Assembly (NCBI GenBank): GCA_024663395.1
Contig: JANFAH010000063.1
Coordinates: 248,001-312,000 of the forward strand
From: Pisolithus tinctorius
Taxonomy: Eukaryota; Basidiomycota; Agaricomycetes; Boletales; Pisolithaceae
Direction of reading: 5' to 3'
Length of the DNA: 64,000 nucleotides
In this document: positions 3,367 to 31,034 of the stretch, in pieces
How the letters are laid out: every line of letters starts with the position of its first letter
Numbering within the stretch: position 1 is the first letter of the stretch
Translations under genes and position numbers: made by a program
Notes under the pieces: model-generated
The model's database searches: none
What the model saw: the letters and a program-made list of their open reading frames with translations, nothing else
What the model was told of the DNA's origin: nothing

Positions 3367-6300
3367 ATGGCTCCTGGGTGTTTCAATACACTGTGGTGTG
3401 TACGACAGCCACCTTCTCCAAGCAATGACAGAATCGTTCCACGAGTCCCTGCTCCGATGGGATCTCCTCAACCAAGTACGCCCCCATCCAGTGCGGATAT
3501 TCATATTCTTGTACTGAGTGGAGTTTCTGTCTAATTCTCCATCAGGTGATCCCGTTCTTGCACGCGCTGAAGACGTACCCCCAGGTAAGTGTTTTACTTA
3601 TGATAAACGGGACAAGCCTAACAACGTTAACAACCAGTGTCTCTCTCTTCGCGTCCTACTTATCGCTTAGATCCTGCGGCGGCTGACGAGCATGTCGATC
3701 GCATCAGTCGTTTTCGCGTTCTTGTCATGGGCAGAGCAAATGCTGGTAAAACGACGATCTTGCAGAGGATTTGTAGTACTACCGATCAACCAGAAATTTT
3801 CAATGGAGAAGGACAGCGGGTAAGTAAGTTTCATGTGATTTTTTGAGGTTAATGACACGTTGGGCTATGCCTAGGTGGATGATGATGTAGTGCAGGGTTC
3901 AATAGCGGTAGGTTGCCTCATGAATGTTATGCAACATATATGTTCAATGTATCCAGCGTGGCTACCATGACATTGGTATTGAGCTGGTGTTTCCGAGTAA
4001 CCCACGCTTTGTATTCCACGATTCTTGTGGATTTGAAGCTGGAAGTCCAGAACAATTTGTCCAGATGAAGAATTTTGTGATAGAACGTGCCAAAACAACC
4101 AAACTAGACAAGAGAATCCATGCTATCTGGTAAGCATGCCACGGCTGGCAACTTTGAGTGTACTGATGATGACATCATTTGGTTGGTCATGAAATGAAGG
4201 TTCTGCATTCCATTGACTGAGAGCCACAGAATGGTTACAGCTGCTGAAAGAAAGTTTTTTGATGAGTGTGATACAGGATATGGTGTGTACATATCCATAT
4301 ATTTTGTGTTTGTATAATTTTATGTGTTTCCACAGTTCCTGTCATAGTATTGGCAACAAAGGCAGATAGCTTGGAACTTGAAGCTGTCCAGGCATTTGAG
4401 GACCAAGGTCTGCTTGTAGAAGATGAAGCAGGGGAAACAGCACTGGTGGAAAAGATTAAGAATGACTACATGGCAAAACTTAAGAATTGGTTGAAGGAGA
4501 CTAAGTTTCCACCTTGTGACTATTTGTCACTCACTGGTGAGTAGCCTACATATTGTTGTAACATGGCACACTGGATGAGACACCACTGCAGGAATGGACC
4601 AAGAGGGTGCAGATTGCAAACCTCTACTGACTTGCACAGTGAATGCATTGAAGGAGGAAAGCCTGCAACAACTCCTCATCTCCACACAGCAGACTAACCT
4701 GGAATTGTGCATTGAATTTGCTATAATGAAGTAGGTGACAAAGCTGAACATCTACAATATACTGACAGGTGCAAGGACATTGAAGATGTGCATGAATAGG
4801 AAGGTTGGGCAAATTGGACACAGAGTCCTCTCCTCTATCCTTTCAACATGGTTTCCATATGTAAGAGAAAATTGTGTTTTACATATGTTTGAGAGGCTGA
4901 TGAATTTATAGGAAGTAAGTACAACTCTGCAGCTCAGTGCAGGTTAAATGTGGTGATGGGCTCATTGTTGGCATTGGTTTAATAGTATGTAAGTGCATCT
5001 ATGGCATGGTGGAGCTTGCATGCTGATCATAGTCACTGCTACCTTGTTGGACATGGGCTAATAGCAAGTGAGTGAGGCCATGGTATGTAGGTGGTGGATG
5101 CATGTTGATGACATGTGCTGTGATGTTGTTGGACTTGGGTTAATAGTTTGTGAGTGGAATCATGACTGCAAGTAAAGGATGGATACTAACCATGAAGTTC
5201 ACTCCCACCCCATTGGACTTGGGTTAAAAGCAAGTGAGTGGTCATGGCAGGTGGTCAAGCATGCATGCTGATCATGTTCATTGCTGTGCTGTTGGACTTG
5301 GTAAACAGTTTGTGAGTGGACTGATGGCAGGTGATGGATGGATGCTGACCATGTTCGCTGCTGCCTGGTTTGACTTGGTTCGATAGCAAGTAAGTGGAGT
5401 TGTGGTAGGTGGTAGCAGATGCAAGCTGATCTTGTCTATTGCTGCCATGTGGTACTTGGGCACATAGGGAGTAAGTAGAGTCATAGCAGGTAGTGGTGGA
5501 TGTACATTGACCACATCCACTGCTGTCCTGTGGGACTTGGGTGCATAGATTGTAAGTGGAGTCATAGCAGGTAGAGGTGGAGGTGGATTATTGACCCATG
5601 TTTGTTGTTGCCCTGCTGGACTGGATTCACAGTTGGTCAGTGCAGTCATGGCATATGGTGAATACATACTGACCATGTGCACAACTGCCTGGATGGACTG
5701 GGATTGATAGAAAGTGAGTGGAGTTATGACAGGTGGTGGTGACTGACCATGGCCACTGCTGGCCTGTTGGGCTTGGTTCATAGGGAGTGAGTGGAGTCAT
5801 GGCAGGTGGTGAATGTATGCTAATGATGCTTGCTACTTCCCTGTTGGACTTGGGTTTACAGTTGGTCAGTGGAGACATGGCAGGCAATAGTGGATGGTTG
5901 CTGACTATGTTCACTGTTGCCCTATTGGACTTGGGTTCAAAGTGGGTGAGTGGTATCATGAAATGTGGTGGTAGATGTATACTAACTGTGTTTGCCACTA
6001 CTGTGTTGAACATGGTAGAATGTGAGTGGAAGTATGGTCAGTGGTGACATATACATGCTAAGCATGGGTCACTTCCACCCTGTTGGGCTTTGGCTCATAG
6101 ACTGTGAGTGGAATCATAGCAGGTGGTGATAGATGTATGCTAATAATCATATCATCTTCACTGCCACCCTGTTGGACATGGGTGTATAGGTTGTGAGTGG
6201 AGTCATGGCAGGTTGTGGCAGATGCATGCTGATCATGTACACTGTTGTCCCATTGGACTTGGGTCCATAGCAAGTGAGTGGATGCATGGCAAATGGTACA

Positions 6301-9300
6301 TGCTGATCATGTCTGTTGCTGCCCTGTTGGATCTTGGTTCATAGGGAGTAAGTAGCATTATGACAGGTGGTGGTGGATGTTTGCTGATGATCTTCACTGC
6401 TGCTCTGCTGGATTTGGGTTTGTAGCTTGTGAGTGGAGTCATGGCAAGTAGCAGTAAATGGGTGCTGATTGTGCTGTTGCACTTGGTCCATAGCAAGTGA
6501 GTGGTTATAGCAGGTGGTGCATACTGATGGCGTTCACTGTTATTGAATGGATTCATAGCAAGTAAGTGCAGTGTTGTGATGAGTATGATGAATGGGTGTT
6601 GACTATCTCAATTGTCACTGGGATACTGTTGGATTTGGGGTGATAGCATGTGAGTGGAGCCATGGCTGGAGGAGGAGGATGGATACTGACTACACATGTC
6701 CACTGCTGCCCTGTGGGACTTGGGTTCATAGGTTGTGAGTGGAGTATTGGAAGGTGGAGGAGGATTGCTGACCATGTGGACTGCTGTCCAATTCAACTTG
6801 GGCACACAGTTGGTCAGTGGAGTAATTCTGGTGGAGATGCTTGCTAACCATGTTGGATGTTGCACTGTTGGCCTTGGATTTATAGGGAGTGGGTGGAGTT
6901 TTCATGTGTAGTGGTAGGTCCATACTGACCATGTGTGTTGCTGCTTTGTTGGTCTTGGATTCATAGGGGGTGAGTGAAGTCATGGGGAGGTAGTGAGGAT
7001 CTTTGCTTACCATGCCAACTGCTACCCTGTTCATAGGAAGTGGGTGAAGTCATGTCAGGTGACAGTGGATGGTTACTGACTGTATTCACTGGTGCACTAT
7101 TGGTCTTGGGTTCATAGGTTGTGAGTGAAGACTAGCAGGTGGTGGTGGGTGCTTACTGATTATATTCATTGTTGTCCTGTTGGACTTGGGTTCACAGTTG
7201 GTGATTGGTCTCAGGGCAAGTTGTGAAGGATGCTTGCTGACATGTTTATTGCCACTTTGTTGGACTTGGGTTGATAGCAAGTCAGTGGAGCCATGGTAGA
7301 TGATGATGCATGCTGACCCTTTTCAATGCCACACTTTTGGACTTGGATTCATAGCAAGTGAGTGAAGACAAAGCATGTTGTGATGCATGGACTCTTACCA
7401 TTTTAATTACCACTGGGTCCCTGTTGGACTTGGGTTGATAGCAAGTGAGTGGGCCATGGTTGGTTCTGATGCATGAATGCTGACCATGTCCACTATGCAC
7501 CTGTTGGGCCTGCATCTATAGGGTGTGAGTGTAGCCATGACAGGTGGTGTTAGATATATGCTGATCATGTTCCTGTTGAAATTGTGCTGATAGCGAGTGA
7601 GTGGAGTCATGGCCATGGGCCAGTAATGGTGGATGTCTCTGATCATGTGCACTGCCAACCTGTTGGACTTGGGGTCATAGGGAGTGAGTAAAGTCATGGC
7701 TGGTAATAAAGGATGCATGCTTACCATGTTCATTGTTGCCCATTGTACCTGGCTTCACAGTTGGTGAGTGATGTCATAGCAAGTTATGGAGGATCTACAT
7801 ATGTATGTATACTGACCCTCATCACTCCCACCCTTTTGGACTTGGGACCATAGATTGTGAGTGGAGTTGCAGCAGATGGTGATAGGGGCAGGCTGATCAT
7901 TTTTCTGCCACCCTGTGGGACTTTGGTTCACAGTTTGTGAGTGCAGCCATGGCAGATGGTGAAGTATGGATTCTGTGTAGCTGACCATGTTCATGTCTGA
8001 TCTATTGGACTTGGACTCATAGTTTGTGAGTGCAGTCAATGCCAGTGGAGGAGGATATATACTTACCATTTTCATGCTGCCCTGTTAAACCTGGCCCCAT
8101 AGGGAGTAAGTGGACTGATGGAGTGGTGGTTAATACTTGCTGATCATACTCACTGCCAACATGTTGGATTTGGGTTCATAGCAAGTGAGTGAAGTCATGG
8201 CATCTGAAGGTGGATTCATGCTGATAATGTGCTCTGTTGTACTGTTGTACTTGGATCCATAGCATGTGAGTGGTGTTATTATAGGAGATTGTGGATTTTT
8301 ACTGACTATGATAATTGCCACCTATTGCACTTGGGTCTGCAGGAAGTGAGTGGAGCCATGGGAAGTGGCAGTGGATATATGCTGACCTTTACTACTGTGT
8401 TGTTGGACTTCCCTTCATAGTTGGTAAGTTATGTAACAGTGGTGGATGGATGTTGACCATGCTCACTGCTGCACCATTGGACTTGGGTTGATAGCAAGTG
8501 AGTGGAGCCATCACAAGTGGTGGTGGGTGGATGCTCACCATGTTGAATGCCAACCTGTTGGTCTTTGGTTGACAGCAAGTGAGTAGAGTCACAGCAGATA
8601 AAGGAGGATGTAAGCTGACCATGATTATTCTTGATTCTCAGCAAGTGAGTAGAGTCATAGCTAGTGGGGGTAGATGGGTGCTGACTATGTTCACTGCCCC
8701 CCACTTGGGTTGGTAGCAAGTGAGTTGAGTCATAGCAAGTGGTGGCAGATAAATGCTGACCATTTTCATTGCTGCTTTGGGGCTTTGCTTCATAGATTGT
8801 GAGGGGAGTCATGACAGGTGGTGATGGATTGATGCTAACCATGTTTAATACTGGCCTACTGGACTTTCATTCACAGCTGGTGGGTTGAATCATGACAAGT
8901 GGTGGTGTATTTTTGCTAACCAGGATCACTACTGCCCTACTGGACTTGTGTTGATAGCAAGTGAGTGGGGCCATGACAGGTGGCAGTACATAGATGCATA
9001 CTGACCATGTTCACTCTCACCCTTTTGGACTTGGATTCATAGCAAGTGAGTGGATTTCTGGCTGGTGGTGGAGGATGCATGTTGACCATATTCACTGTTG
9101 CCTTGTTGAATGTGGGCTTATAGTTTGTGAGCAAAGATATGGCAGGGGATGATGAGTGCATGCTAACCAGGTTCACTACCACCCTATTGGTATTGGGTTG
9201 ATAGTTTGTGAGTGGAGTCATAGTAGGTAGTGCCAGATCCATGCTGACTATGTTCAATGTCACCTTGTTTGGCATGGGTTTAATAGCAAGTGAGTGCAGC

Positions 9301-11032
9301 CATGGAAAGCAGTGATGGATGCATGCTGACCATGTTCACTGCCACCCCATTGGACTTGGGTTCATACATAGGTTGTGAGTGGAGTTATTGCAGGTTGTTG
9401 TAAATGTGCTGAATGTGTTTACTGCTGTCTTGTTGGACTTGTGCCTATAGCTTGTGAGTGCAGTCATGGTAGATGGAGGTGGATGCATGTTCACCATGTT
9501 CACCACCATCTTGTTGGACTTTGGTTCACAGCAAGTGAGTGCAATCTAGCAGGTGGATACATACTGAGGATGTTCATTGGTTCCCTGTTAAATTTGGATA
9601 TATATAGCAAGTATGTGTATGACTGGTGCTAATTTCTGAGGGCTGAGCACATCCATTGCCCTCCTGTTTGGTTGATAGGGAGTGAGTAGAGTCATTTTCC
9701 ATGGTGATGCCACATGCTCATTGCAGACCATATTCACTGTCACCTTGTTGGACTTGGGTTCACAGCAAGTGAGCAGAGTTAAAGATAGCCTGTGCTTGCA
9801 CATGCTCACTGAAATCCTATTGCATTTTATGTCATAGATAGTGAGATTTGTTTAATGTCCACACTGAGCAGCTCTTAACATTTAACAGATGGTCAGCATA
9901 ATTGATTGATGCATGGTTAACATGTTATTCCAAAATATCTTCCAGGATGTAGGTACATCCTCTGATGCAATATAACATTGATTCCTATGTTTTGATGTCT
10001 GTCAGAATGTTAGTGCTCATAAATGTTCAGAATTACACAACTTGCTAATCTCTTTTGTGTAGGATGTATGGGTCTAATTGAACTGGGCATTCAATAATTA
10101 CTAATACATTTACAGTTGGTTTGTGGCCTTTCTTCTTCACTCAAATTGGATTTCATAATTCCATTGATACACTTCTTAGGTTGTAAGTTTAATCTATTTC
10201 TATTTCTGTTGGCATTGACTGATTATTTTATTCTAAATGTCAGCCTGCCATTTACCATGACCAACCCCTCAAGATTCCCCATTTGTCTCTTTCAAAAAAA
10301 TCTTCTATGAAATATATTGCACAACATGGCATTGGTAAAGAACACATTCTGATTGTTTGAATGACATTGCTCATGATTGGAGGTGCCATACTTGTGTTTG
10401 AGTACTTATACTTCTTGTTGCAAGACAAAGCAAGAGAGGGTGATCTGCAGGACAACCTCACTCAGGCTGTCAAGCAATATCAAACTTCAGGGGTCCATGA
10501 CAATGTCAACAAGCTTATTGACAGAGCCTTTCAAGAGCATGGTGAAGATGTAGAGGTTTTATGCCCCATCCTTGTGGATATTGCAAAGGAGAATCAGATG
10601 TGTAAGGCACCCATATCCTCCACACATTTGAATATTAAGCCTAATTTTATCCAGCAAAAAATCTGAAGTAGGAGAGGATAGATAATTTGATTGCTTGAGT
10701 GGTTGACTGACTGCTATGTTTGTTATCCCTGTGCCTTTTGAAATTTATGCATGTGCTTGCTGAAAACATTCACTGATGTGCAGGACCTTGCATTGGAACA
10801 TGCCATCCAACTTGGTGATTCCAGTGTTTACATATCCAAAAATGCTGATGATATCAAATAGTATAACATATGTAATGTACATAGAAGAATTGTTGAAAGT
10901 AAGCCAAAGCTTTAACTCTCATGCATAGACTTCAATCCTATCTCTTGTAATTCATTCTCATGCCCTTCTTTGTCCTTACTATGGTTTAAAAATCCAGTCC
11001 AGACCATCCTGTTTTCTGGCATAAAAACATAG
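3367..11032 (+). CDS. GRANAGKT-type GTPase with a one-codon-exon region, copy A
   Basis: Predicted membrane-associated GTP-binding protein of a family expanded in Agaricomycetes; its biological role is not known to me. ATG at 3367 starts MAPGCFNTLW. Exons 3367-3475, 3546-3584, 3638-3819, 3875-3907, 3957-4129, 4200-4282, 4336-4536, 4592-4730 and 4776-4860 join in frame (348 codons). G1 is GRANAGKT, G3 is DSCG in FHDSCGFEAG, G4 is TKAD in VLATKADS. Then come 69 single-codon exons (4912-10182), then exons 10244-10334, 10383-10599 and 10784-10898. The 10383 exon starts with a hydrophobic run (AILVFEYLYFLL) that could be a membrane segment. The final exon depends on which acceptor is used: 10998-11024 ends SCFLA, 11003-11032 ends GIKT. 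The total is about 566 residues. The start is supported by copy B, which matches codon for codon upstream of the P-loop. The exon structure is inferred from splice sites and paralogue comparison. Confidence 0.75.
4912..10182 (+). repeat. Array of 69 single-codon exons separated by repeat-like introns (copy A)
   Basis: About 62 tandem units of roughly 77 bp, then six or seven unique introns. Each unit runs from a GTGAGT/GTAAGT-type donor, through a G-rich body and a CTGAC/CTAAC branch-like site, to a TGGACTTGGGTTCATAG-type acceptor. Exactly three variable bases then precede the next donor. The first triplets start at 4912, 4986, 5065, 5147, 5231, 5309, 5387, 5468, 5549, 5633, 5711, 5784, 5862, 5943, 6019, 6101, 6190 and 6271. 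Triplet starts continue to the last at 9766, 9838, 9889, 9946, 10006, 10063, 10116 and 10180. Counts: CAA 20, GGA 7, TTG 7, TTT 6, GTT 5, GAA 3, ATT 3; no stop codon and no triplet ending in AG. The preceding exon ends in phase 0 at 4860 and the following one starts in phase 0 at 10244. The alternative is a minisatellite inside one 5.4 kb intron. Conservation of the encoded peptide with copy B argues against that. Confidence 0.8.
9841..10243 (+). other. Seven unique introns with single-codon exons at the array end (copy A)
   Basis: Introns 9841-9888, 9892-9945, 9949-10005, 10009-10062, 10066-10115, 10119-10179 and 10183-10243 are not members of the 77 bp repeat, but they still separate single codons (ATG, GAT, AAT, GAT, TTG, GTT). 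Each has a GT donor and a pyrimidine-rich CAG/TAG end. Copy B has counterparts of nearly the same lengths at 28422-28828, with codons ATG, GAT, AAT, AAT, TTG, ATT. Similar intron sequences in both copies show that they predate the duplication. They are the strongest sign that one-codon exons are not an artefact of repeat periodicity. Confidence 0.75.
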
Positions 11033-11918
11033 CAACTGGATCAAAACTGACAATCATGGTGCAGTTTCCTTAGAGTTGGGCACCTGTAACTGGTTTTCTC
11101 ATGCTTTGGGTATGAAATGTCCAATCACCTAGTTCATATGTACTGTACATATGTATATCCAATCTTTGCACATTTTGGATTGTTTATTGAATTTATCAAG
11201 AACAAAGACAAATGAGACCAGAATGTAAGTGGGAGGGCATGTTCCATGATACTTGTACAATGTGCCTTGCAGCAGCATTACCTGAAAGCATCAAAAATGC
11301 AAAATTGTCCAATGGTACACTTTGTATTCATCAGTTCACAATGTAGACCACTGTTTGGGAGACTCCAAGTAAGTGCCCCATCAGCCTCCACAAACCATGC
11401 CAATGTTGTGACAGAGCATTAGGCTTCACCATGAATGAAGTGCAGCAGTGAATGTGGTCACACACAGGGACCAAGCCAACCTCTATTCAGACAGTTTTCT
11501 AACATGCTGTACATACATAGCACCCCTCCAATGTTAGAAACCCATGTATCATAGACCATGCACAGAAAGATAGCAATTAGATGTTGGAGGAGTCAACAAC
11601 ATCCTACACTGTCAAGCATGAATCCAGACATGAAATACAGCCAACAACCTTGGTGATATGCAGCTTAGTCCAAAATCATGATCATGCCACCTGTGCAGTC
11701 ATGGATTGTCTATTGCCACCCCAGCCAAATGCAATAGTCAAAGTCCAACTACAATGAATGCCATGTCCATGCCATGAAGCAATGTCATATACAAAGTGTT
11801 CACAAAAAGTCTGCCAAGGCCTCACAGAGCATTGCACACAGTGTCCAGGAAGCAAGACCTGAAGTACATGACAGTAAGACAAAAGATACCATCAGTAGTG
11901 AGGTGTATTCATACCCAA
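11033..11918. other. Intergenic, no gene seen
   Basis: CpG-poor sequence downstream of GTPase copy A. I see no open frame of convincing composition, no RNA gene and no obvious repeat. Some of it may be 3' untranslated sequence of the GTPase. Confidence 0.5.
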
Positions 11919-12830
11919 TCATGCCCACCTTCCTTTACCCTTACCCTTTGGACCACTAACAGCAACCTTGCCCTCACCAGAATTCAACACATCCAGAACA
12001 TCAATGTTGCCCACAGAGAACTGAGATAACAGAGGCAATGGTGTCTGCACCCCCCTGTCTTTAGTGACAAAAGAGGAAGGTGGTCTGAGCATCAACAATG
12101 CTGAGGAACTACTGCCTCCAGAAGCAGCCAAGGTCACATCATGACTAGATGCCAACATAGAGCATAACCAACACAGCAGAAATAAAGGGTACCCACAGGG
12201 GAGATGCAGTCATCTCCTCAAAGTGGAATGTCCCACTACTACAAGATGTTCCTCAACTCCACAAAAACCCCACCTGCAGGTGCAGCCCCACAGAAATGAT
12301 CTGTGTACAAGACAGTCATGTTCAAATTTGGAACTGGTGTCCTACACCAGCAAGGATGGGAGCTATCAAAACAACATTGAGATGCAAAATGCAGGGGAGA
12401 GACATCACTCACACTACAGTTGAGGACATTGTCACATTGTGCACAAAATCTGACAATGTCACCAGGAATGCCTTGGTGACACCATCTGGCAGAGAGAATG
12501 CATGTGTGGTAACAGTACCCAGGCCAAAGATAAAGGGGTAGGGGCTATCAGGGATGCATGTTTCATGCTCCTCACTACTCAGATTGCCAGGGACAGCTGC
12601 AAGATAGAGGCTTTGAGTAAAATAGGGTCATGGGGAATGGATGATGGGATGTAAGACCTTGCAATAATATATGCCACTGAGTCATCCACAAGCAACATGT
12701 TGAAGGGACTGTAAATGTGCAGTTGTGCAGGAAAGACCACACCTGACATACACTGCACAGTGGTGTCATATAAGCAGTGACAGGCCTTTGCCCCACTGCT
12801 GCCTCTTGTTGACTGTACATGATCCCCCCC
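11919..12830 (-). pseudogene. Remnant of a dispersed OB-fold-like gene family
   Basis: On the minus strand the segment 12579-12830 encodes YDTTVQCMSGVVFPAQLHIY followed by NMLLVDDSVAYIIARSYIP. After a frame change, PYPFIFGLGTVTTHAFSLP and FLVTLSDFVHNVTMSSTV follow. Beyond an intron-like gap come TPVPNLNMTVLYTD and GGVFVELRNI. This order matches a repetitive Agaricomycete gene family with a predicted nucleic-acid-binding OB-like fold that is often found next to transposable elements. A Ser-rich tail ending GPKGKGKGRWA at 11919-12158 is consistent with the family's basic C-terminus. Frame changes and a stop suggest a dead copy. Recognition is from memory of the family, and the function of the family is not established. 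Confidence 0.45.
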
Positions 12831-12840
12831 CCCCCCCCCC
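12824..12840 (+). repeat. Poly-C tract followed by an A-rich run
   Basis: Seventeen consecutive C bases, followed directly by an A-rich run. It lies within the minus-strand OB-fold-like remnant and reads as poly-Gly (GGGGG) there. It is a likely site of slippage and sequencing error. Confidence 0.9.
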
Positions 12841-15070
12841 AAACAAAAAAAAAACATGAAGAAACCTACAACAGCAGTCATCAACATATCCATATCCACT
12901 GGGAGAACACACAACAGAGACCATAGCATGCACCACATTTTATAACCCAGAGCCCCCACTATGGATGCTGAGTGTCATGACTGTGCATTTATCCTAAGTC
13001 CCCACCCACTCCACCCACTACTCCACTGGTCATTCACTCACTCCACACCAACTCTGCCTGCCCTCTATCATTTACATGTCTTCTCTGCTCTGCCTATGAG
13101 CAGACTTGGTACCTGTCTGCTGTCAAACCATGTGAACTGGTCTACAGGAGGTCATGTGACCAACCTTTGGCCTCCTCCTTGACACTGCACAGTCAGGTAC
13201 TCCACAGTGTGTGCACCTCATGGTTCAGCACCTAGACTGTTTCCTTTCTGGTCTGTTCAATGTTACCCACCATATGTTCTCCATCTACCCTTCATTCATC
13301 ATCCAGGAAGTTTTACTTGAAAATTTACAAGTCTCCATATGTCAGTTCTGATTCTGATTACTGTACCTCCATAGTAGTATAAAAGCATGTACAGTACTCT
13401 GTTGTTCCTCAGTATGAATATCACCAAAGTTCCTACTCTGTGTCTCCTCCATCTTCTGTCTGTCAGAGTTATCTCCAAACTTCCATCTGGTCTCTTCCTC
13501 TGAAATATGAGTGCTGAGATTTGTGCAAGGGGGTAGTGCATGAGCTAAGCCTGACACCCTCACTCCATTCCACTCCTGTCTTGGTGGACTTCATCCCTGC
13601 CAATCCTCCACTAGTCAGAGTTCTGTTTTGACTGTGTCAGACTTGCTTCTGTTGTAGGTCATGACTTCTGCAAAGCATGTGACTAGGGGAAAGAAGGGAA
13701 AATTCCCTATGGTCATCCCAAGGGGTGCTGAGTGGGAAAGAGAGGCAGAATATGACACTAGAGGTGTATAGGTAGATGAGTGAGAGTTGCAGAATTTAAT
13801 TCCAGAGACTTGTGGGTGTGCAAAGAGTGAATGGACTGGGTATATGAAATTCTGAGCTACAATCTGGACATGAAAAGGGACTTCTTGATGCAGAAGGTGC
13901 AGGGAGCACAAAAGACTCTGAAAACACTGTAGATGCTAGACTCAAAGGGCACTTTAGACTCTGGGGACTCTTTTAGACTCACAAAGGACACACAGATAGT
14001 GACTCCAAAGGTGGGTGGTATTTTTCCAACACTAAGGCAGAATTATAGAGTACATGGGATGTAGGTATGAGTCAGAATAAGGTGGGGTGGGAAAACTAAA
14101 ACTCTGGAAAATAAAGACAAGTGTGACAGACATCAGTGAAGTACAGATTCATGTGAAATAGTCCAGTATGTGGTAAATGAGAGTGAAAGGAACAAAGGGC
14201 AAGATGGATATCTTCCAGCAGAATGGGGGTATATGTAAGAGGTGAAAGACAAAGCTGGTAGGGAGTGCAGGAACACTGGAGAGAGGATCATATGAATGCA
14301 AAGAAAGGCTTGCAGAATCTTTTGGGGCAACAGGGGTAACTAGAAGTTTTACTGGCATCTGGCAAGATCAGCTGGTGATGTGGCAGGGCAGTGGTTAGGT
14401 TGTGGAATCCAAGATCAATGCACTGATGACTCCAGTTGATGTGTTGATGGTCAGGGAAAAACTCCAAAGCCAAAAGGGGGTAGGACAATACATAAGGCAA
14501 CATGTGGAAAGAATTCTGAAGAGGTAGCACTGATAGGGGCTTGGCTTGGAGGTGGTGTAATTAATTGACTGTATGTTGTTTCAGCCTCAGGGAGTATATG
14601 GCTCCCTACACCATACCTCTCCCCAGACCTTGTTAAGCATTGGAGTTGGTTGGAGTAGGCCCAGACTTAACACTGAGCAACTACCCATCCTCAATGCATC
14701 TGCCCCACACAAAGTGTTCACAGTCCATGTGGCAACATGAGCAACCATACTCAAAAGGCACCAACAGCACACCACCCCACACACTATGGGGCAGACCCAA
14801 ATAAACAAAAACAAAAACATTGGACATGGGCAAGATAAGGGTAATTCATTTTTTCTCAGCATTTCTTAGTCCCAGTTAACTACATTTCACTCAACCATCT
14901 CTTCTAACAAAATTTCAAGAACCTAGAGAATCTTCATAGACACATTAGGGCATGTAGGTTTTAACATGTAGAATAGTGCTGCTACCCCATCAATTTTTTG
15001 AATTACTGTACATTGGCACACTTTCACATGACATTGGATGGAACTGCACAAGCCCTGCCTTAGGAGCAAC
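12841..15070. other. CpG-poor region without a supportable gene
   Basis: More than 2 kb of TG/CA-rich sequence with only short, biased open frames. On the minus strand near 14290-14530 a stretch (LEFFPDHQHINWSHQCIDLG) vaguely resembles the protease region of a Ty3/gypsy polyprotein, but nothing downstream supports a reverse transcriptase. Most likely old transposon sequence eroded by C-to-T change. The CpG-poor state ends sharply at the stop codon of the TPR gene at 15071. Confidence 0.4.
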
Positions 15071-18449: not shown

Positions 18450-20110
18450 ATGACCGTGCGCCAGATCACAGTCGGTTCGCTCAAGCAGCTCAAGAACGCC
18501 GTCATCGGAAACCCGTCTGCAAAGTTATCGCTTGCCAGAGACTCTGCATTCATCCATCTGTATCGATACATTGCAAGATTTGTTGGCTGAAATGCTAATA
18601 CACCCGCAGACTCGTCAGTTGTCTTAACCATCCCATAACACCAAGCAATTGCGAAGCTCAGGGCTCGCAAGATGACATCCGCATCGAAGCTGTCCACATC
18701 ATTTCATCCTTGGCATACGGTACATCCATCCTGTATCTACAGAACTTCTGAGGCTCATACCCACTTTCGTGTTCGACAGGTTCGGAAACAGTGCTATCCG
18801 GTCTACTCCGTGCCAACGCCCACCAAGAGGTCGTTCGTGCACTCACGAGTCCGCATGCGTTAGGCACACCTCAATTGAAGGCGGCACTTGCACGCGGCCT
18901 ACGTGTGCTTGCGAGCTCGATGGCCGATGTCGTGGGTCCTTCACAGGGACCTATGCGCACGTACACATCAGAACATCGCGCGGAAGCCAAGGTTGCACTC
19001 AGCTTTCTCTTCGAAGTAGGTTGTTTGCCTATATGCACTGGTCGAGTGCGACAGCTGATGGAAAATTGGCACCATGGATCAGTATGAATGTCTTGACGTT
19101 TACCTCCCCCTACTCGAAGATTCCTCTCTACAAACATCCCTCTCCATTGCTCAACTTATCAGTGCAGCAGTCCGCACTGACACCCACCGCACCGCCATCA
19201 TCGAATGGTTCCCGCCCAAAGAACGCCAAAAAGAAATAAAAAAATCGAAGAGGATGGGAGAAACATGATGTCATCTACCAGGCTACCTGGTAGACACGGA
19301 ACTTGGGTCCTTCGTCACCTTATCGCTATGATCCAACAAAAAGGGTTGCAAGGAAAGCATGTGTCAGGCCGCCGTGTAACCGGGATACAGACACAAGAAG
19401 CCGCTTTATCTTCTGTGGTAGCACCGGTGATGGAAAATCCTTCCGTGGCAAACACCTTGGCCAAGAAACTGTTGGAAGGTACGTTTATCGCGTGCTCCTA
19501 TGGTTGTATTTTGACTTCACGATGCTCGAAGCTCTTGTTCCTGCTCTTAAACTTGTTTTGGCACGTGCCAAGAGCTGGGTAACGAGCGTACAGCTGGCGG
19601 CTTCATGATGGTCAGTTTACTGCGTGTATGCATGTTCATGCATTCACACTAGGTCATTTAGTGCTACTCACATCATCCGTGCTCAAGGCAACCACCCTCC
19701 AGGTCATTCGGACCACACAGCAGTCCTAACCTCTATCCACGTTGTCAACCTCACCATTTCCTCGACGTCCAAGCAGCCGCAAAGCCAGATCAAAGCATGC
19801 TATGCGCTATGTGAGTAGCTCTCGTACCGCCTAGCGTTTTCTGTACAGATTCACTTGTCAAGAACGAAAAAGATTTTTGCTTCGAAGCAGCGGGCTAGGG
19901 GCGTACTAGCCAGTTTAGCATCTCTTGCTAAATCGATTACATCCGAGAAGACAGTGACCGTTGTGGAGTCGACGAGCCCGATAGCAGGGTCAGCTTGGCG
20001 GCGCCGCATCAGGTGTTCAAGAAGGAAGACGAGAATGTGCATGTGATTGCTGCTTCGTTGGCGACGGCGTGTAACCTCGTCGACGATTTCTTCCCTTTGC
20101 TTCTGTTGAC
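18450..20110 (+). pseudogene. GID5/ARMC8 armadillo gene, decayed copy B
   Basis: This copy starts like the full-length gene at 36477: MTVRQITVGSLKQLKNAVIG at 18450. It shares the exon encoding GLLRANAHQEVVRALTSPHA and the MDQYECLDVYLPLLEDS exon at 19074. An extra A in the A-run near 19238 shifts the frame, giving KKSKRMGET then a stop, whereas copy C reads KNRRGWEK. Further on, blocks corresponding to HIIRAQGNH and VFKKEDENVHVIAASLATAC survive. About 300 bp between IAGSA and VFKKEDE are missing, and the last third of the gene is absent, exactly as in copy A. Near-identity with copy C over the first 700 bp indicates a recent duplication or gene conversion there. Confidence 0.8.
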
Positions 20111-20249
20111 GAAAGATCGATCAATGAGTGCAAGAGGAGATCAGAGATGTAGAGAAGCGTACTCCGGAGGGTGTACCACGTCACGTTGATGGGGTTTGGG
20201 GAGCAGGGAAGAAAAACCAAGTGTCGTTTTGGGAGGTGTGAAGCTCTTG

Positions 20250-20900
20250 ACTTCAGGCACAGCATAGTTGACAGACTCGATTAATATCTGTCGCAGGCGG
20301 AAAATTTCCACGTCATCCCTATAGACCAGTTCTTCTTGACTCGTGTTGCATACTCTTACTGACATACTTGAGCCTTGTACTTCGTGGCAGACGGCGGCCT
20401 AAGAAGCATAACGTATTCACCGGCAGCCCTGCGTTGCCCTGTGTCATACTTCGTGTTCCGGCGACTTTCGCGAGAATCATTGTGAAACATACCATCTCCC
20501 TTGAAGCCGGTGACGCCCGCGTCACTTCCAGACCCTAATTCGCAGCTTCCTTGCCCTTACCCTTGCATCCCTCCTCATCGGCGGTACATATTACAAAAGG
20601 GGGCGAGGGCAGCACCTCCAAGCTCATCACATCCTCGACCGGTACAAATAAAGAGTTCACAATCGCATCTGTATTCCTACCTCTTTTCTTTCCTCGTTCA
20701 TCGTGAGACGATCTGAGGCCAGGTGCATCACCGGCGTCGTGCCTCTTCACCTCGTCGGCCAGGATTCGGAGTAAAGTGGATGCGTTAGCCTGTCTGGAAG
20801 ATAGGGGAGGATTGCCATCGCGGAGGCATGCGATGGACGTAGGAAGAGCGACTTCATGAGCATGAACGATGACAAGGACAAAGGAGGCTGAGGGCGAGGG
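20250..20900 (-). other. Unidentified minus-strand coding remnant (copy B)
   Basis: Counterpart of the segment at 2280-3000. The clearest open stretch is 20535-20750, starting KRHDAGDAPGLRSSHDERGK and containing DVMSLEVLPSPPFVICTA. I do not recognise the family. Compared with copy A, substitutions mostly keep the reading frame in this stretch, which hints at past coding. From about 20900 to 21850 this copy also has sequence not seen in copy A and I find no gene in it. Confidence 0.3.
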
Positions 20901-21850: not shown

Positions 21851-24800
21851 ATGGCTCCTAGGCTTTTCAATACACTGTGGCGTGTACGGCAGCCACTTTC
21901 ACCAAGCGCCAACGCACTCGTTCCACGAGTTCTTGCTCCCATAGAATCTCCTCAGCCAAGTACGTCCGCATCCAGTGCCGATATTCATATTCTCGTACTG
22001 AGTGGAGTTGCTGTCTAATTCTCCATCAGGTGATCCCGTTCTTGCACGCACTGAAGAATTACCCCCAGGTGAGTGTTTTACTTGTGATAGATGGGACAAG
22101 CCTAACAATGTTAACGACCAGTGTCACTGGATCCTGCGACGGCTGACGAGCATGTAGATCGCATCAGTCGTTTTCGTGTTCTTGTCATGGGCAGAGCAAA
22201 TGCTGGTAAAACGACGATCTTGCAGAGGATTTGTAGTACTACCGATCAGCCAGAAATTTTCAATGGAGAAGGACAGCAGGTGTGTATGTTGCATCGGATT
22301 TTTTGAGGTTAATGACGTGTTGGACTATGTTTAGCTGGATGCTGGTGTAGTGCGGGGTTCAATAGCGGTAGGTTGTCTCACAAATGTTATGCAACATATA
22401 TGTTCAATGTATCCAGCGTGGCTACCATGACGTTGGGATTGAGCTGGTCTTTCCGACTAACCCACGCTTTGTATTCCATGATTCTTGTGGATTTGAAGCT
22501 GGAAGTCCAGAACAATTTGTCCAGATGAAGAAATTTGTGATGGAACGTGCCAAAACAACCAAACTAGACAAGAGAATCCATGCTATCTGGTAAGCATGCC
22601 ACGGCTGGCAACTTTGAGTGTACTGACGGTGACACCATTTGGTTGATTATGAAATGAAGGTTTTGCATTCCATTGACTGACAGCCACAGAATGGTTACAG
22701 CTGCTGAAAGGAAGTTTTTTGATGAGTGTGATACAGGGCATGGTGTGTACATATCCATATATTTTGTGTTTGTATAATTTTAGTGTCTCCACAGTTCCTG
22801 TCATAGTATTGGCAACAAAGGCAGATAGTTTGGAGCTTGAGGCTGCTCAAGAATTTGAGGACCAAGGCTTGCATGTAGAAGATGGAGCAGAGGAAGCAGG
22901 ACTGGAGGAAAAGATTAAGAATGAACACATGGCAAAGCTCAAGGGTTGGTTGAACAAGACTAAGTTTCCACCTTGTGACTATCTGTCACTCACTGGTAAG
23001 TAGCCTACATATTACCTGTAAGATGGCCCAGTGGATGAGAAATCACTACAGGAATGGATGAAGAGGGTGCAGATTGTACACCTCTACTGACTTGCACAGC
23101 AAATGCATTAGGGGAGGGGGGACTGCAACAACTCCTCATCTCCACACAGCAGACTAACCTGGGGCTGTGTATTGAATTTGCTATAATGAAGTAAGTGATG
23201 AAGCTGAAGATCTACAATGTACTGACAGGTGCAAGGACATTGAAGATGTGCATGAATAAGAAGGTTGGGCAAATTGGACACAGAGTCCTCTCCTCTATCC
23301 TTTCAAAGTGGTTTCCATATGTAAGGAATGAGTGTATTGTATATGTGAGAGGCTGATGGATTAATAGGAAGTAAGTGAAACTCTCAAAGTGACTGCTTAG
23401 TGCAGGCTAAATGTAGTGATGGCTGTTGTCCTTGGTGTGATAGTATGTAAGTGCATCTATGGCAAGGTAGTGGTGGATGTGTGGTGACCACATTCATTGC
23501 AACCCTTTGTGACATGGGTTCATAGCAAGTGAGTGGTGTTATGGTAGGTGTAGGAGGATGGATACTGACCATATTCACTACTGCCCTGTGGGATGTGGGT
23601 TCACAGTTTGTGGGTGAACTCACTACAATAGGTGATGAATGGATGCTGACCTTGTTCACTCCCACCCCAATGGACTTGGGCTGAAAGCAAGTGAGTAAAG
23701 TTACAGATGATGGAGGATGCATGCTAATTACATTTACTGCTTCCCTGTGGGACTTGGATGGGCAGTTTGTAGGTGTATTCATATCAGATAGTGGATGATG
23801 GATGCTAATCATATTCACTGCTGCTCTGGTGGACTTGTGGTCATAGGGGGTGAGTGGAATCATGGCAGATGGTGGTAGATGCAAGCTTATCATGTCTGCT
23901 ACTACCTGGTTGGGTTGGACTGGGGTTCACAGGGAGTGAGTGCAGTGATGGAAAGTGGTGGTGGATGCTTGCTGACAATGTTTACTACTGCCCTGTTGGA
24001 TTTGGGTTCAAAGCGAGTGAGTGGAGTCAAGACAGGTGGATGTGGATGTTTGTTGACCATGTTCATGTTCATTGCTACCCTGTTGGACTTGGGCTCCTAG
24101 GTTGTGAGTGGAGTAATAGCAGGTGGTGGTGGATTGCTGACCATGGTCCCTGCTGCACTGTTGGACTTGGGCTCATAGGGAGTGAGTGAAGTCAGGGAAA
24201 GTAGTGGTGGATGCTAGCTGATAGTTTTCACTTCTGCCCTCTTGGACTTGGGTTTAAAGCAAGTGGGTGGAGTCATAATAGGTGGTGGTGGATGCTTGCT
24301 GACCATGTAAATTGCTACCCTGTTGGGCTTGGGTTCATAGGTTGTGAGTGGAGTAATGGCAGGTTGTGGTGGATTGTTGGATTGCTGACCATGTTCATTG
24401 CCACCTTGTTGGACTTGGGTTCACAGTTGGTCAGTGGAATTGTGGCAGGTGGTAGTGGATGCATGCTGACCCTGTACATTGCTGGTCTGGTGATTATAGC
24501 AAGTAAGTGGAGTCATGGCAGGGGTGGTAGAGCAGGCTGACTACCTTATTGGATTTGGGGTCATAGGGAGTGAGTAGAACCATGGCAGGTGGTGGTAGAT
24601 GCATGCTGACTATGTTCACTGCCACTCTGTTGGACTTGGGTCCACAGTTGGTGAGTGGAGTCATGGTGGGTGGTGGTGGGTGTATGCTGACTTGTTTGAC
24701 TTGCACTCACAGTTTGTGAGTGGAGTCATTGCAGGTGGTGGGGGATGGATGCTTACAGTGTTTACTGCTGCCTTGTTGGATCTGGGTTCATAGCAAGTGA

Positions 24801-27800
24801 GTGGAGGCATGGCAGGTAATGATGATGATGCATGCTGACTGTGTTCACTAATGCCCTGGTGGACTTGGGGGGTCATAGACTGTGAGTGAGGACAGCAAGT
24901 GATAATGGATGCATGCTCACCATAGGCACTGCCTATTGGACTTGGGTTCATAGGTTGTGAGCAGAGTCATGGCAAGTGTTGGTAGATGCATGCTGACTAT
25001 GTTCACTGTTGCTCTGGGGGACTTGGGGGTATAGCAAGTGAGTGAAGTTATGTCAGGTGGTGCACACTGATCATGCTAACTGCTACCATGTTGGACTTTG
25101 GTTTATAGGAAGTAAGTAGAGTCATGGCAGGTGGTGAAGGATCATGTTGATGGTGTTCACTGCTGCTCTTCTGGATTTGGGTTCATAGCAAGTGAGTAGA
25201 GCCATGGCATGTGGTGGTGGTTGCATGCTGACCATGTGAACTAGCAAGTAAGCAGAGTCATGCCAGGTGGAGGAGGGTTGCTGACCATGTTCAATCCTGC
25301 CCTGTTGGGCTTTGGTTCACAGTTGGTTAGTGGAGTGACAGGCAGTGGTTGATGGATGCTGATCATGTGCACTGCCACCCTGATGGACTTGGATTCATAG
25401 CAAGTGAGTAGGCTCATAGTAGGTGATGGTTGAAGCAAGCTGACCATGGCCATTACTGCCCATTGTGACTTGGGTCCACAGTGGGTGAGTGGAGTGATGG
25501 TAGTGATGGCCATTGCTGACCATGGTCACTGCTGTCCTGTTGGATTTGGGTTCACAGTTGGTCAGTGAAGTCATGGCAGGTGGTGGTAGATGCAAGCTGA
25601 CCTGTTGCACTTGGGGTCATAGGGAGTGAGTGGAGTCATGGCAGGTCATGGTGAATGCTTGCTGACCTGTTGGTCTTGGGTTCATAGGGTGTGAGTGGAG
25701 TCATAGTCACTGGTAGTGGGTTTATGTTGACCTTATGCTTTGCTGCCCTGTTGCACTTGGGTTCATAGGAAGTAAGTGGAGTCATGGCAGGTGGTGGTGA
25801 ATGTTGTTGACCATGTTCACTGTTGCCCTACTGGTCTTGGGTTCATAGATTGTGAGTGGAGACATAGCAGGTGATGGGTGCCTACTGATTACTGTCCTGT
25901 TGCACTTGATTACACAGTTGGTAAGTAGATTTATGGCAGCTGGTGGTGGATATTAATTTTCATTGCCATTCTGTTGTACTGGGTTTCATAGCAAGTGAGT
26001 GCAGTTATGGCTGGTAGTGGCAGATGGATGTCAGCCATGCTGATTGCTGCCTTGTGGGACTTGGGTTCATAGGGAGTGAGTGGTGTCATAGCAAGTGGAG
26101 GATGCATGTTGATCATGTTCTCTAATGCCCTGTTGGATTTGTGTCAATAGCGAGTGAGTAGAGTCATGTCCTACTCATGGCTGGTGGTAGATGCATGCTC
26201 ACCATGACAACTCCCAACCTGTTGGACTTGGGTTTATAGGGAGTAAGTGAAGTCATGGAAAGAGGTGCTGGATGTATGCTTAACATGTTCACTGTTGCCC
26301 TGTTGGCCTTTGATTCATAGTTGGTGAGTGGCATCATGGTAGGTGGAGGAGGACACATGGTGACCATGTTCACTGTCACACTGTTGCCCTTTGGTTCATA
26401 GCTTGTGAGTGGAGTCATGGCACGTAATGATGGATGAGACCTGACTTTGTTTGTTGCCTTCCTGTTGCACCTGGGTTCATAGTTTGTGAGTAGAGTTATG
26501 ACAACTGGTGATGGATGGATACTGAGCAATTGACCATTGCCACTATCAACCTGTTGTACATACCTTGGCACATAGTTTGTGAGTGGAGTCATGGGAGGTG
26601 GTGGTGGATGCATGTTCACCATGTTCATTGTGGTCCTGTTGCATGTGGGTTGATAGGGAGTGAGTGGACTCATGGTTATTAGTGGTGGATGTTTGCTTAT
26701 TATGTCTCATGCAAAAACTTGTGGACCTGGCTTCCTAGCAAGTGTGTGGAGTCATTGCATGTGGTGGTGAATCCATTCTGACCATGTGCACTGCTGCCCA
26801 TTGTTCTTGGGTCCCCAGCAAGTGAGTGGGGTCATCACATGTGGCAGATGACTACTAACCATGTTTACTGCTACCCTATTGCACTTGGGTTGACAGGAAG
26901 TGGGTCCAGTCATGGCTGGTGGTGGAGCATGTTTGCTAACCCTGTTCAACACCCTGTTGTTGGACTTTGGCTCATAGTTTGTGAGTGGAATCATGGCAGA
27001 TGGTGGAGGACACATTCTAACCATGCTTATTTCCATCTTGTTGGACTTGGGTTGATAGCAAGTGAGTGGAATGCAAGTGGTAGTGGATGATGTTGAGCAT
27101 GTTCCCTGCTGCCCTGTTGACCTTGGATTATAGCAAGTGTGTGCAGTCATGCCAGCAGGTGGTGGTGCATGCATACTGACCATGTTTACTCCCTCCCTGT
27201 TGGACCTGTGTTGATAGCAAGTGAGTGGAATAATGGCAGGCAGTGGTGGAGGATGCATGCTGACTATGTTCACTGCTGTCCTGCTGGCATTGGTTTCATA
27301 GCAAGTGAGGGGCATCATTGCTGGCAGTTGTGGACCCATGCTAACCATGCTCACCACTGTTTTTGAACTTTGCTCTATAGCTTGTGAGGGCAGTCATTGC
27401 AGGTGGTGATGGATGGTTGCTGACCATATTTCTGGTGATCCTGTTGAACTTCTGTTTACAGTTTGTGAGTAGGATGATCATCCATGGAGGGTTTGCATGT
27501 TTGTTAACCATGTGTACCACACCCTGTTGCACTGATAGCAAGTGAGTGGAGTTGTTGCAGGTTGGGGTGGATTGAGATTGAGATTGACTATATTTGCTGT
27601 TATGTTGTTGGACTTTGGTTTATAGCAAGTGAGTGGAGCCATGACTTGTAGTGGTTATCTGTGGATATATGCTAATCATGTTCCTGTTGCCCTGTTGGAT
27701 GTGGTTCATAGTTTGTGAGTGGGATGATGCCAGGGGGTGATGGATCCATGCTGACCATGTTCAATGTCACCCTGTTGGTGTTGGGTTCATAGTTTGTGGG

Positions 27801-29415
27801 TGGAGCCATAGTGAGTGGTGGAGGATGTATGCTGACCATGTTTATTGCCACCCTGCTGCACTTGGGTTAATAGCAAGTGAGCAAAATTCATTGTAGGTGG
27901 CAGTAGATACATTCTGACTGCTGCCCTTCTGGACTTGGGCTCATAGATTGTGAGTGGATTTGGAGTCATGGCAAGTGGTGGTTGATGATTGCTGACTCTG
28001 TGCAATGCCATCTTGCTGACATTGGGCTCATAGTTTGTGAGTGGAATCATGGCCAATGATGGTGGATGCATGCTGACCATGTTTACTGCCATCTTGTTGC
28101 ACTTGGGTTGATAGCAAGTAAGTGGAGTTTAACAGGTGGTGGTTGACCATGTTCACTGTTGTCTGTTAAACTTGGATTCATAGCAAGTATGTGCAGTCAT
28201 GGAAGGTGGTGGTGTATGTTTGCTGATCACATCCATTGCCTACCTGCTGCACTTTGGTTCACAGGCAGTGAGTAGGATTGTGGCATGTAGTGATGTATGC
28301 ATGCTGATTATGTTCACCATGACCTTGTTGGACTTGGGTTTGTAGCAAGTGAGTGGTGTCAAACAGCAGTGGTAGTTGCACCCTGACCATTTCTACTACA
28401 AATTTGTTGGTGACATAGGTGGTGAGATTTGTGTAATGTCCATACTGTATTTCACAGTTTGTAACACAATACAGATGGTAAGCATTGTTAATTGATGTAT
28501 TGAGCTTTCATTTAACATTACCATCAGGATGTAGGTGCATGCTTTCATGGAATATCACTTTGATCCTCAGATCTCCATGTTTATCTGTCAGAATGTCAGT
28601 GATCATCAGTCCTCATGGTCTTCCAAACTGCTGAAGTATTTTGTGTAGAATGTATGAGTCTACCTGAATTGAGCATGCAATAGTTGCTAATATATTTACA
28701 GTTGGTCTGTGGTCTTGTTTTCTCATTTACATTGGTTTTTACAGTTCTCATGGTGCAATCTTCAGATTGTAAGTTTTATCTGTTTGTTGCATTTTGTAGC
28801 ACTGAGACTTTTCCATTTAAAATGTTAGCCTGCTATTTACCATGACCAGCCCCTCAAAATGCCCAAATTGTCCTCCTCAATGCAATCTTCTATGAAGTTC
28901 ATTGCACAACATGGCATTGGTAAATAATACCTTCTGATGGTTTGGTTAACATAATTTATGATTGTAGGTGCCATACTTGTGTTTGAGTATTTGTACTTCT
29001 TGTTGCAAGGCAAAGGAAGAAAGGGTGATTTGCAGGAGAACCTGACTTTGGCTGTCAAACACTACCAAACTTCAGGTATCCATGCTAATGTTAATGGGCT
29101 TATTGACAAAGCCTTTCAGGAGCATGGTGAAAATGCAGAGGTTTTATGCTCCATCTTTTTGGATATTGCAAAGAAGAATCAGATGTGTAAGACATTGTTT
29201 GCTCCACACATTTGAAAGTTTAACCTTACATGTCACCCAGCAACAATATTAAGTAGCAAAGGATAGATCCTACATTTGCTGAAGTGGTTCAGTGAGACTG
29301 CTGTATTTCCTATCAATGTAGCATTTGAAGAACAGATGCAGATGCATGTACTTTTGAAAATCTTCACTGTTGAAAAGAACCTTGCAGAACTTTGAGCTGG
29401 CTGTCTGTGCATTAG
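21851..29415 (+). CDS. GRANAGKT-type GTPase with a one-codon-exon region, copy B
   Basis: Paralogue of the gene at 3367. ATG at 21851 (MAPRLFNTLWRVRQPLSPS). Exons 21851-21959, 22030-22068, 22122-22279, 22335-22367, 22417-22589, 22660-22742, 22795-22995, 23052-23190 and 23236-23320 join in frame (340 codons, eight fewer than copy A just before the G domain). G1 GRANAGKT, G3 DSCG and G4 TKAD are kept. Then come 71 single-codon exons (23368-28768), exon 28829-28919 (PAIYHDQPLKMPKL...), exon 28968-29184 with hydrophobic AILVFEYLYFLL, and probably a short last exon at 29388-29415 ending SVH. The C-terminus is about 40 residues shorter than in copy A, because the exon equivalent to 10784-10898 meets an early stop. 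The total is about 522 residues. Intact frame across all conventional exons suggests a working gene or a very recent loss. Confidence 0.72.
23368..28768 (+). repeat. Array of 71 single-codon exons separated by repeat-like introns (copy B)
   Basis: Same organisation as copy A, with a mean unit of about 77 bp. The first triplets are at 23368 (GAA), 23444 (TAT), 23526 (CAA) and 23607 (TTT). The last are at 28419 (GTG), 28475 (ATG), 28528 (GAT), 28592 (AAT), 28649 (AAT), 28702 (TTG) and 28766 (ATT). The first six codons are identical to copy A. CAA occurs 22 times; no triplet is a stop or ends in AG. One intron is unusually short (about 53 nt, ending at 25239-25245), yet it still has donor, CTGAC and TAG. 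Relative to copy A there are four additional codons after position 6 and two fewer in the middle. These are therefore gains or losses of whole intron-plus-codon units that keep the frame. Confidence 0.8.
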
Positions 29416-29759
29416 GGATTACTTGGCACATAACAAGATGCAATGCCAGTTGACATTGTATTGCAAGGTGTATGTCTCCAGAAATTCTGTATTGTTTCTG
29501 CACCTATGCTATCCCTTGCTTCCTTAGCCAAAACCAGCTTGAACTTTCAGAGGCATTAGGATCCCCAAGCACACCAAAAATGCAACTGCAGATCCTCATG
29601 CATGGGATATCATGATGGCTTTTGCAAATGGAACAATCAAATCCCTACCAGAAGCAGAGGAGAAATTGTTAGTACACCTTGGACATTAGTATGATTTCAC
29701 ACAGTGGAGGATGGCCTTTGACAAGGTTTTTAAAGCTGAAGTTCACTGGTCTGCTGCTA
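29416..29759. other. Downstream of GTPase copy B, no gene seen
   Basis: CpG-poor sequence. A short open stretch near 29560-29690 has no recognisable content. Copy A has no obvious counterpart, so the two units differ from here to the TPR gene. Confidence 0.45.
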
Positions 29760-31010: not shown

Positions 31011-31034
31011 TCAAGAGTCTAAAGCAAAAAAGAA

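Follow-up and report, generated by a model that had tools for sequence, protein, structure and literature searches.

In transcription activator-like (TAL) effectors, near-identical tandem repeat units vary at a single hypervariable spot and are reshuffled by recombination. Recursive splice sites leave no exon, and introners are dispersed. Here these and other described systems are compared with a 64,000-nucleotide stretch of the genome of Pisolithus tinctorius (Boletales; 92.5-Mb assembly; G000:C63:248001-312000), referred to below as the window, which carries two GTPase genes that are each interrupted by a long tandem array of ~80-bp units. We put the probability that these arrays are coding minisatellites, in which each unit comprises one spliceosomal intron and one codon, at roughly 0.9. 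Sequence matches to proteins of sister genes make it most likely that splicing retains the one-codon exons and that they are translated, giving a variable segment that leads from the GTPase domain to a C-terminal helical domain.

The arrays resemble TAL effectors in having near-identical tandem units that vary at one hypervariable spot. However, the repeat backbone of a TAL effector is protein, whereas the Pisolithus backbone would be spliced out so that the variable codon alone stays: the repeat is intronic, and the predicted peptides contain no long repeated unit. Adjacent splice sites and repeated intron sequences are features shared with recursive splicing, stwintrons and introners, but the Pisolithus units stand in tandem and would leave one codon per step.

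Short exons are known from other genes. The micro-exon genes (MEGs) of schistosomes have exons of 3-81 bp and introns of up to 5 kbp (PMC10526429), and are similar to the Pisolithus genes in their numerous short exons per gene, variable proteins, alternative isoforms and membership of a gene family (PMC10526429, PMC10399815). In the wide sense of a long coding part made up of very short exons, with lengths that are multiples of 3, the window genes are themselves micro-exon genes. MEGs differ in their long introns and secreted proteins, as opposed to the ~77-nt tandem introns (48-90 nt, median 77, for the 68 introns between codons in the first window array), uniformly one-codon exons and GTPase product of the fungal genes. 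Drosophila homothorax contains one spliced 3-nt micro-exon (PMC7392893), whereas the Pisolithus genes would have dozens in succession, and Trichoderma Xlr2 has a functional microexon in a filamentous fungus, but as a single regulated exon (PMC11121469). No arrays of one-codon exons are reported in the literature searched, which covered the beginnings of abstracts, without preprints and most subscription journals.

Architecture of the window arrays

Both genes lie on the forward strand, with gene 2 located 18.5 kb beyond gene 1. Their parts, in window positions, are as follows.

3367..4860, + strand: gene 1 pre-array GTPase exons, separated by ordinary introns; the start codon is a by-eye prediction
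within 3367..4860, + strand: gene 1 pre-array motifs, namely P-loop GRANAGKTT, ...HDSCGFEAGS... and ...KADSLE...
4776-4860, + strand: gene 1 last pre-array exon, with a phase-0 end (...STWFPY)
4861..10243, + strand: array 1, 69 one-codon exons (4912-4914 ... 10180-10182) among 70 introns, with a predicted 69-residue peptide
9889..10182, + strand: final six one-codon exons of array 1, ATG GAT AAT GAT TTG GTT (MDNDLV)
10244..10334, + strand: gene 1 exon after the array, PAIYHDQPLKIPHLSLSKKSSMKYIAQHGIG, phase 0; end placed by eye
10383..10601, + strand: gene 1 next exon, C-terminal part AILVFEYLYFLLQ...KENQM, a 100% match to G000:C63:258382-258600
21852..23320, + strand: gene 2 pre-array GTPase exons; start codon approximate
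23321..28828, + strand: array 2, 71 one-codon exons (23368-23370 ... 28766-28768), with predicted peptide EYQFQFGGRVGQVLQGLFQTVQEQQLQWLGGEILQGRGLLFFGQQEFQQQQLFQQFFQIFQQAQVMDNNLI
28829..28920, + strand: gene 2 exon after the array, PAIYHDQPLK..., phase 0; end placed by eye

An original prediction, made from the DNA of the window alone, held that every junction in array 1 leaves exactly three bases between phase-0 flanks and that none of these triplets is a stop. This is borne out: all 69 junctions read AG-NNN-GT, stop triplets number zero, and the flanking exons are both in phase 0 (...STWFPY, array, PAIYHDQP...), giving the predicted peptide EYQFQFQGILKGLWNTVQGLQQHVLGGEVLQQQGRGLIFFGQHELQQQQILQQFFQVLQQGQIMDNDLV. 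The accompanying claim that every unit ends in a YAG acceptor is true for 67 of the 69 (TAG 50, CAG 17), and the other two have AAG. Donors conform to GTRAGT in 51/69 cases. The strict pattern YAG-N3-GTRAGT is found 49 times in array 1, compared to a mean of 0.19 and a maximum of 2 in 200 first-order Markov simulations, and the same pattern with other spacings from 0 to 12 nt has zero occurrences there. As 34 of the 68 introns between codons have lengths divisible by 3, the reading frame is not imposed by intron length. When left unspliced, the array contains 124, 108 and 103 stops in its three frames.

Array 2, which had gone unmentioned in the original prediction, shows the same organisation, with AG-N3-GT at 71/71 junctions and no stop among the triplets. 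Also unmentioned were the atypical introns around the final six codons of array 1, which are 48-61 nt long and by eye unlike the 77-nt repeat, although the 3-nt exons remain. Array 2 ends in MDNNLI where array 1 ends in MDNDLV, with four of the six codons identical and the 3-nt spacing kept. Such persistence of terminal codons and spacing is not expected of a drifting minisatellite.

A CTGAC-type branch site had also been proposed. Across 118 aligned window introns the A of the CTGAC motif is 99% conserved and ranks, together with the donor and the AG, among the most conserved positions, while YTRAY is present in 104 of the 118, the commonest distance to the 3′ end being 39 nt. With GT-AG ends, a donor consensus and a branch-site-like motif, these are introns of the U2 spliceosomal type by sequence.

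The joins between the pre-array exons of gene 1 match the GenBank proteins P0001 and P0002. The latter (BKA82DRAFT_811872) is the GenBank model of gene 2, and is partial, stopping within the first array units. We also see that P0001, P0002, P0013, P0029 and other GenBank models stop ~5 to 35 residues past WFPY, WFPF or WFPN, and that annotation of the family often breaks off in or near the first array units.

Array codons in proteins of sister genes

The two window genes belong to a large family. A query with one pre-array exon located 150 genomic places (180 candidates, 150 scored), and a query with a post-array exon located 122. Pairing on the same strand within 14 kb matched 106 of the 125 pre-array places used with a post-array exon (~113 used). 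The 106 copies include both members of near-identical pairs, which may be alleles or recent duplicates. The paired flanking exons are 1,788-11,968 bases apart (median 3,960), a distance that gives an estimate of roughly 11 to 140 codons per gene. A 23-base unit pattern gave 1,322 matches with up to three mismatches and its reversed control gave 0; all of 100 sampled matches have a GTPase exon no more than 13 kb to their 5′ side, and together they represent 34 genes. At least five chained units were found in 84 of the 85 locus stretches analysed, many of which are partial and some overlapping. The layout that the original prediction described in one GTPase gene is thus an organisation of the whole family.

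Evidence for translation of the array codons comes from proteins with the source tag 'lgn', which we take to denote assemblies of public sequencing runs. P0099 is such a protein, of 467 aa, on a 1,695-nt contig. Upstream of the array, 232 of 233 compared residues agree with the exons of locus L085 (contig C109), the exception being K344, an intron-split codon. Following WFPNTK, the protein continues with DLPPYEQPQYQQQEGETREQWYERRYQEEQEQEQQHEQEYQEQ, which reproduces 43 consecutive C109 array codons, ordered as in the genome, where they extend over 3,445 bp; the chance of a 43-codon match is ~4e-48 at the observed codon frequencies. P0099 also confirms four L085 units that had been missed by the parser, including one with a GC donor. 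Because a 1.7-kb contig cannot contain a 3.4-kb genomic stretch, P0099 is most likely derived from RNA.

A second protein, P0035, agrees at 228/228 compared residues with locus L079 (C15:590798-595936) and ends in ADGFYG, and the first seven triplets of the C15 array are GCA GAT GGG TTT TAT GGA TGA. The TGA is the seventh one-codon exon, at reverse strand position 1407. As P0035 ends at this triplet, the L079 copy seems to encode a truncated protein. P0099 and P0035 together support the inference in the original prediction that about 69 residues are translated, one codon per exon. The test named there, complementary DNA (cDNA), is answered by transcript-like proteins of sister genes (43 codons in P0099, six in P0035); among the best 120 matches of each of three protein searches, none comes from gene 1 RNA.

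Other proteins add to this picture. P0030, a GenBank model (BKA82DRAFT_4223615; C41, 611,571 bases), includes 44 array codons in order; of the 47 parsed triplets, those missing from the model are the first (K), an internal G and the final one (D). P0058 (1,703-nt contig) and P0064 (1,889-nt contig) proceed from GTPase through a variable peptide to a conserved C-terminus. P0058 was rejected as a gene of the same genome, as the best first exons are ~80% identical, which indicates another species or gene. P0014 was rejected as the product of C34:111900-115400 because the exons mismatch, and P0011 has only 36 residues that match the analysed loci at ≥97% identity.

A structural model of P0058, built with 62 sequences, has a mean predicted local distance difference test (pLDDT) score of 76 and a predicted template modelling (pTM) score of 0.73. 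Most of its GTPase domain and of its C-terminal helical domain has a pLDDT above 80, and the variable segment between the two (about 365-410) has a pLDDT of about 45-69. The GxxxxGK[ST] P-loop and the modelled GTPase fold identify a P-loop GTPase of the TRAFAC class; Pfam gives weak Arf, MMR_HSR1 and similar matches, all below cut-off. In a fold search that compared listed families alone, septins, IRG immunity GTPases, EngB and dynamin-like proteins were near-tied.

Junctions, codons and divergence across the family

Junctions were collected from 83 stretches and the window, using acceptor and donor profiles that were trained on the window and ignored the triplet. Among 749 unique junctions the spacing is 3 in 743, the others being 2 (two junctions), 6 (one) and 7 (three). 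The 743 triplets are of 40 of the 64 possible kinds and encode every one of the 20 amino acids, with G, Q, F, E and L the most frequent. They include a single stop (the TGA of L079), compared to 63.9 expected under independent positions, and a looser scan without L079 gave 793 junctions and no stops. No triplet of the 743 ends in C, with one AAC among the 793, as is expected under CpG loss. The splice-confusing triplets NTA and NGT are seldom seen, which probably reflects the competing splice sites that they would create. Several amino acids have one dominant codon among the 743 (Q: CAA 87, CAG 3; G: GGA 85, GGT 9, GGG 6; F: TTT 81), which gives the impression that a small repertoire of codon cassettes was shuffled.

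The contrast between intron and codon is greatest in the youngest arrays, L080, L078 and L006, which were compared on units of the commonest length (42/46, 17/20 and 28/31, respectively). Intron sites in these arrays differ by 1.3-2.3% and triplets by 57-66%, a codon/intron ratio of 25-49. In L080 there are 379 unit pairs with identical introns, and the codon differs in 335 of these. The exon bases form the most variable 3-base window in 5/5 arrays tested (rank 1 of 76 to 79). For the units of the window arrays, similarity is 76-77% in the introns and 34-38% in the triplets. Our best guess is that codon diversity amid identical introns results from diversifying selection combined with homogenisation, but it may also arise via targeted mutation.

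By alignment, close relatives differ by whole units. L082 and L083 have 0 mismatches over 3,280 aligned bases, and the single internal gap, of 239 bases, corresponds to three codons, E-R-G; the two stretches have unequal ends. L081 is 96% identical to both and lacks additional units. Gene 1 and a near copy on C45 share 19/19 aligned triplets, with introns 97-98% alike, and the C45 copy is without one Q unit of gene 1. Between arrays 1 and 2 there is one alignable unit at intron identity ≥0.85, too few for a test of codon conservation.

The surroundings of the arrays show further features. CpG observed/expected is ≤0.1 over 4001-15000 and 23001-33000, which cover both arrays and downstream sequence, with sharp borders to normal values. 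It is similarly low in L079, L080, L085 and L083, and depletion is milder in L073 and L076 (0.12-0.14). This suggests dense CpG methylation. By eye, one gene-like stretch is present in three copies (1081-2900, 19080-20900 and 37100-38400), two of which look degenerate and lie directly upstream of the two GTPase genes; as degenerate copies lie beside both, gene and neighbour seem to have been co-duplicated. A frame at 39870-40560, starting MVFHTISRDVKLAAIHLHDRGLLD (by eye), resembles a Tc1/IS630-type transposase, and an apparent long inverted repeat lies beside it at about 40560-42000. A further inverted repeat at 30050-30450 resembles, by eye, a small foldback element.

Competing explanations and meaning of the arrays

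Several observations weigh against the arrays being coding minisatellites with translated one-codon exons. P0004 (WFPY then PSIS) and P0076 (WFPNTK then LSLEV) join the flanking exons directly, and may reflect an array-skipping isoform. Among the best 120 of 428, 309 and 835 protein matches, none is a transcript protein of the window genes themselves. P0030 omits one internal codon, and the 44th array residue of P0099, its last, is Q where the genome has CGA. As the P0035 cluster includes a 6,075-nt contig, only the unbroken frame across introns speaks for this protein. An RNA origin of the 'lgn' contigs is most likely, on the basis of sequence match and, for P0099, contig size. At the level of loci, L056 is without units, L069 and L075 parse with many gaps, and the L079 array holds a stop triplet. 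L081, which has one junction of spacing 2 and another of spacing 7, may be decaying. The codon/intron divergence ratio is just 7 in L083 (26/34 units) and 2 in L076 (9/36 units). The argument from stop avoidance is weakened because TAA, TGA and TAG beside a junction also create competing splice signals, and is thus partly confounded with avoidance of these signals. Finally, the low-confidence model of the array peptide gives no structural support for a binding surface.

The alternative that survives best, though we consider it unlikely, is that the one-codon exons are used alternatively, such that free pairing of donors and acceptors yields many in-frame peptides with differing codon subsets. 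Every exon is symmetric, at 3 nt and phase 0, and any skip would therefore stay in frame; the internal G omitted by P0030 belongs to a unit with normal-looking splice sites. P0050 and P0020 end, by eye, in an apparent retained array intron, but this may equally be incomplete splicing. No skip is seen across the 43 codons of P0099 or the six of P0035.

Somewhat less probable again is that the window copies are dead, their arrays methylated and silenced, with splice signals left over from functional sisters. CpG observed/expected of ≤0.1 at 4 to 15 kb and ≤0.04 at 23 to 33 kb would agree with this, as does the lack of a transcript of the window genes among the matches listed. However, CpG is equally depleted in loci that have transcript-like proteins or models (L079 0.025, L080 0.029, L085 0.040), and we therefore rejected CpG depletion as a mark of silencing. 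In addition, the frame stays open through the exons that were read, and none of the 69 + 71 triplets is a stop.

It is highly improbable that 4860 is joined to 10244 across a single long intron that holds a non-coding minisatellite, its units intron-like merely owing to their origin from an intron. The tandem structure does resemble a minisatellite, and models P0004 and P0076 skip the array. Yet a neutral repeat would not hold donor, spacing and acceptor while three bases vary, the spacing is 3 in 743/749 junctions, and the final window units keep their 3-nt exons despite introns unlike the repeat. The 43 ordered codons of P0099 and the six of P0035, which end at the stop triplet, led us to reject this explanation for the family, and it is very unlikely that the array is always skipped as a single long intron throughout the family. 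The least probable view is that misassembly of a tandem repeat accounts for the youngest arrays, with their near-identical introns and varied codons. Long tandem stretches of 80-bp units are difficult to assemble and near-identical locus copies do differ in array length, but an independently assembled contig repeats the C109 codon order and mis-assembly would not place the variation in the three exon bases (rank 1 in 5/5 arrays).

We therefore retain coding minisatellites as the preferred explanation. About 70 introns per gene would be spliced out, joining 69 codons in frame in gene 1 and 71 in gene 2, the window genes presumably being spliced like their sisters. The original prediction argued that a 3-nt exon is too small to hold both splice complexes at once, a steric point that is reasonable. 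Under a mostly 5′-to-3′ order of intron removal, every step would pass one codon to the growing upstream exon, and two complexes on one 3-nt exon would never be needed. The partial transcripts fit ordered removal, but they are biased because the reading frame was followed from the 5′ start. Recombination in the look-alike introns would gain, lose or swap whole units, without frameshift since each unit carries one phase-0 codon, and selection would keep the array codons diverse.

More tentatively, and at less than even odds, the whole may be viewed as a codon-shuffling architecture. Each residue of a recognition segment would have an exon to itself within an interchangeable intron cassette. Recombination would edit the peptide residue by residue, with codons diverging 25-49 times as much as introns in the youngest arrays, free pairing of about 70 equivalent splice sites would turn each gene into a library of in-frame peptides, and the ~100 genes of this GTPase family would serve self/nonself or partner recognition. 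A role in recognition is suggested by the expanded family and its hypervariable segment, from which we infer that the array peptide could be a diversified recognition or binding surface.

If the coding minisatellites are confirmed, the assumption that coding exons need a recognisable size would fail, as dozens of successive 3-nt exons would be spliced. Since gene models miss the arrays, with the gene 2 model stopping early and others skipping them, similar genes may hide in other genomes. In Pisolithus, a protein segment would be rewritable one residue at a time without frameshift, and it would become directly testable in a fungus how exons are recognised, in which order splicing proceeds, how concerted evolution acts and how hypervariable protein regions originate.

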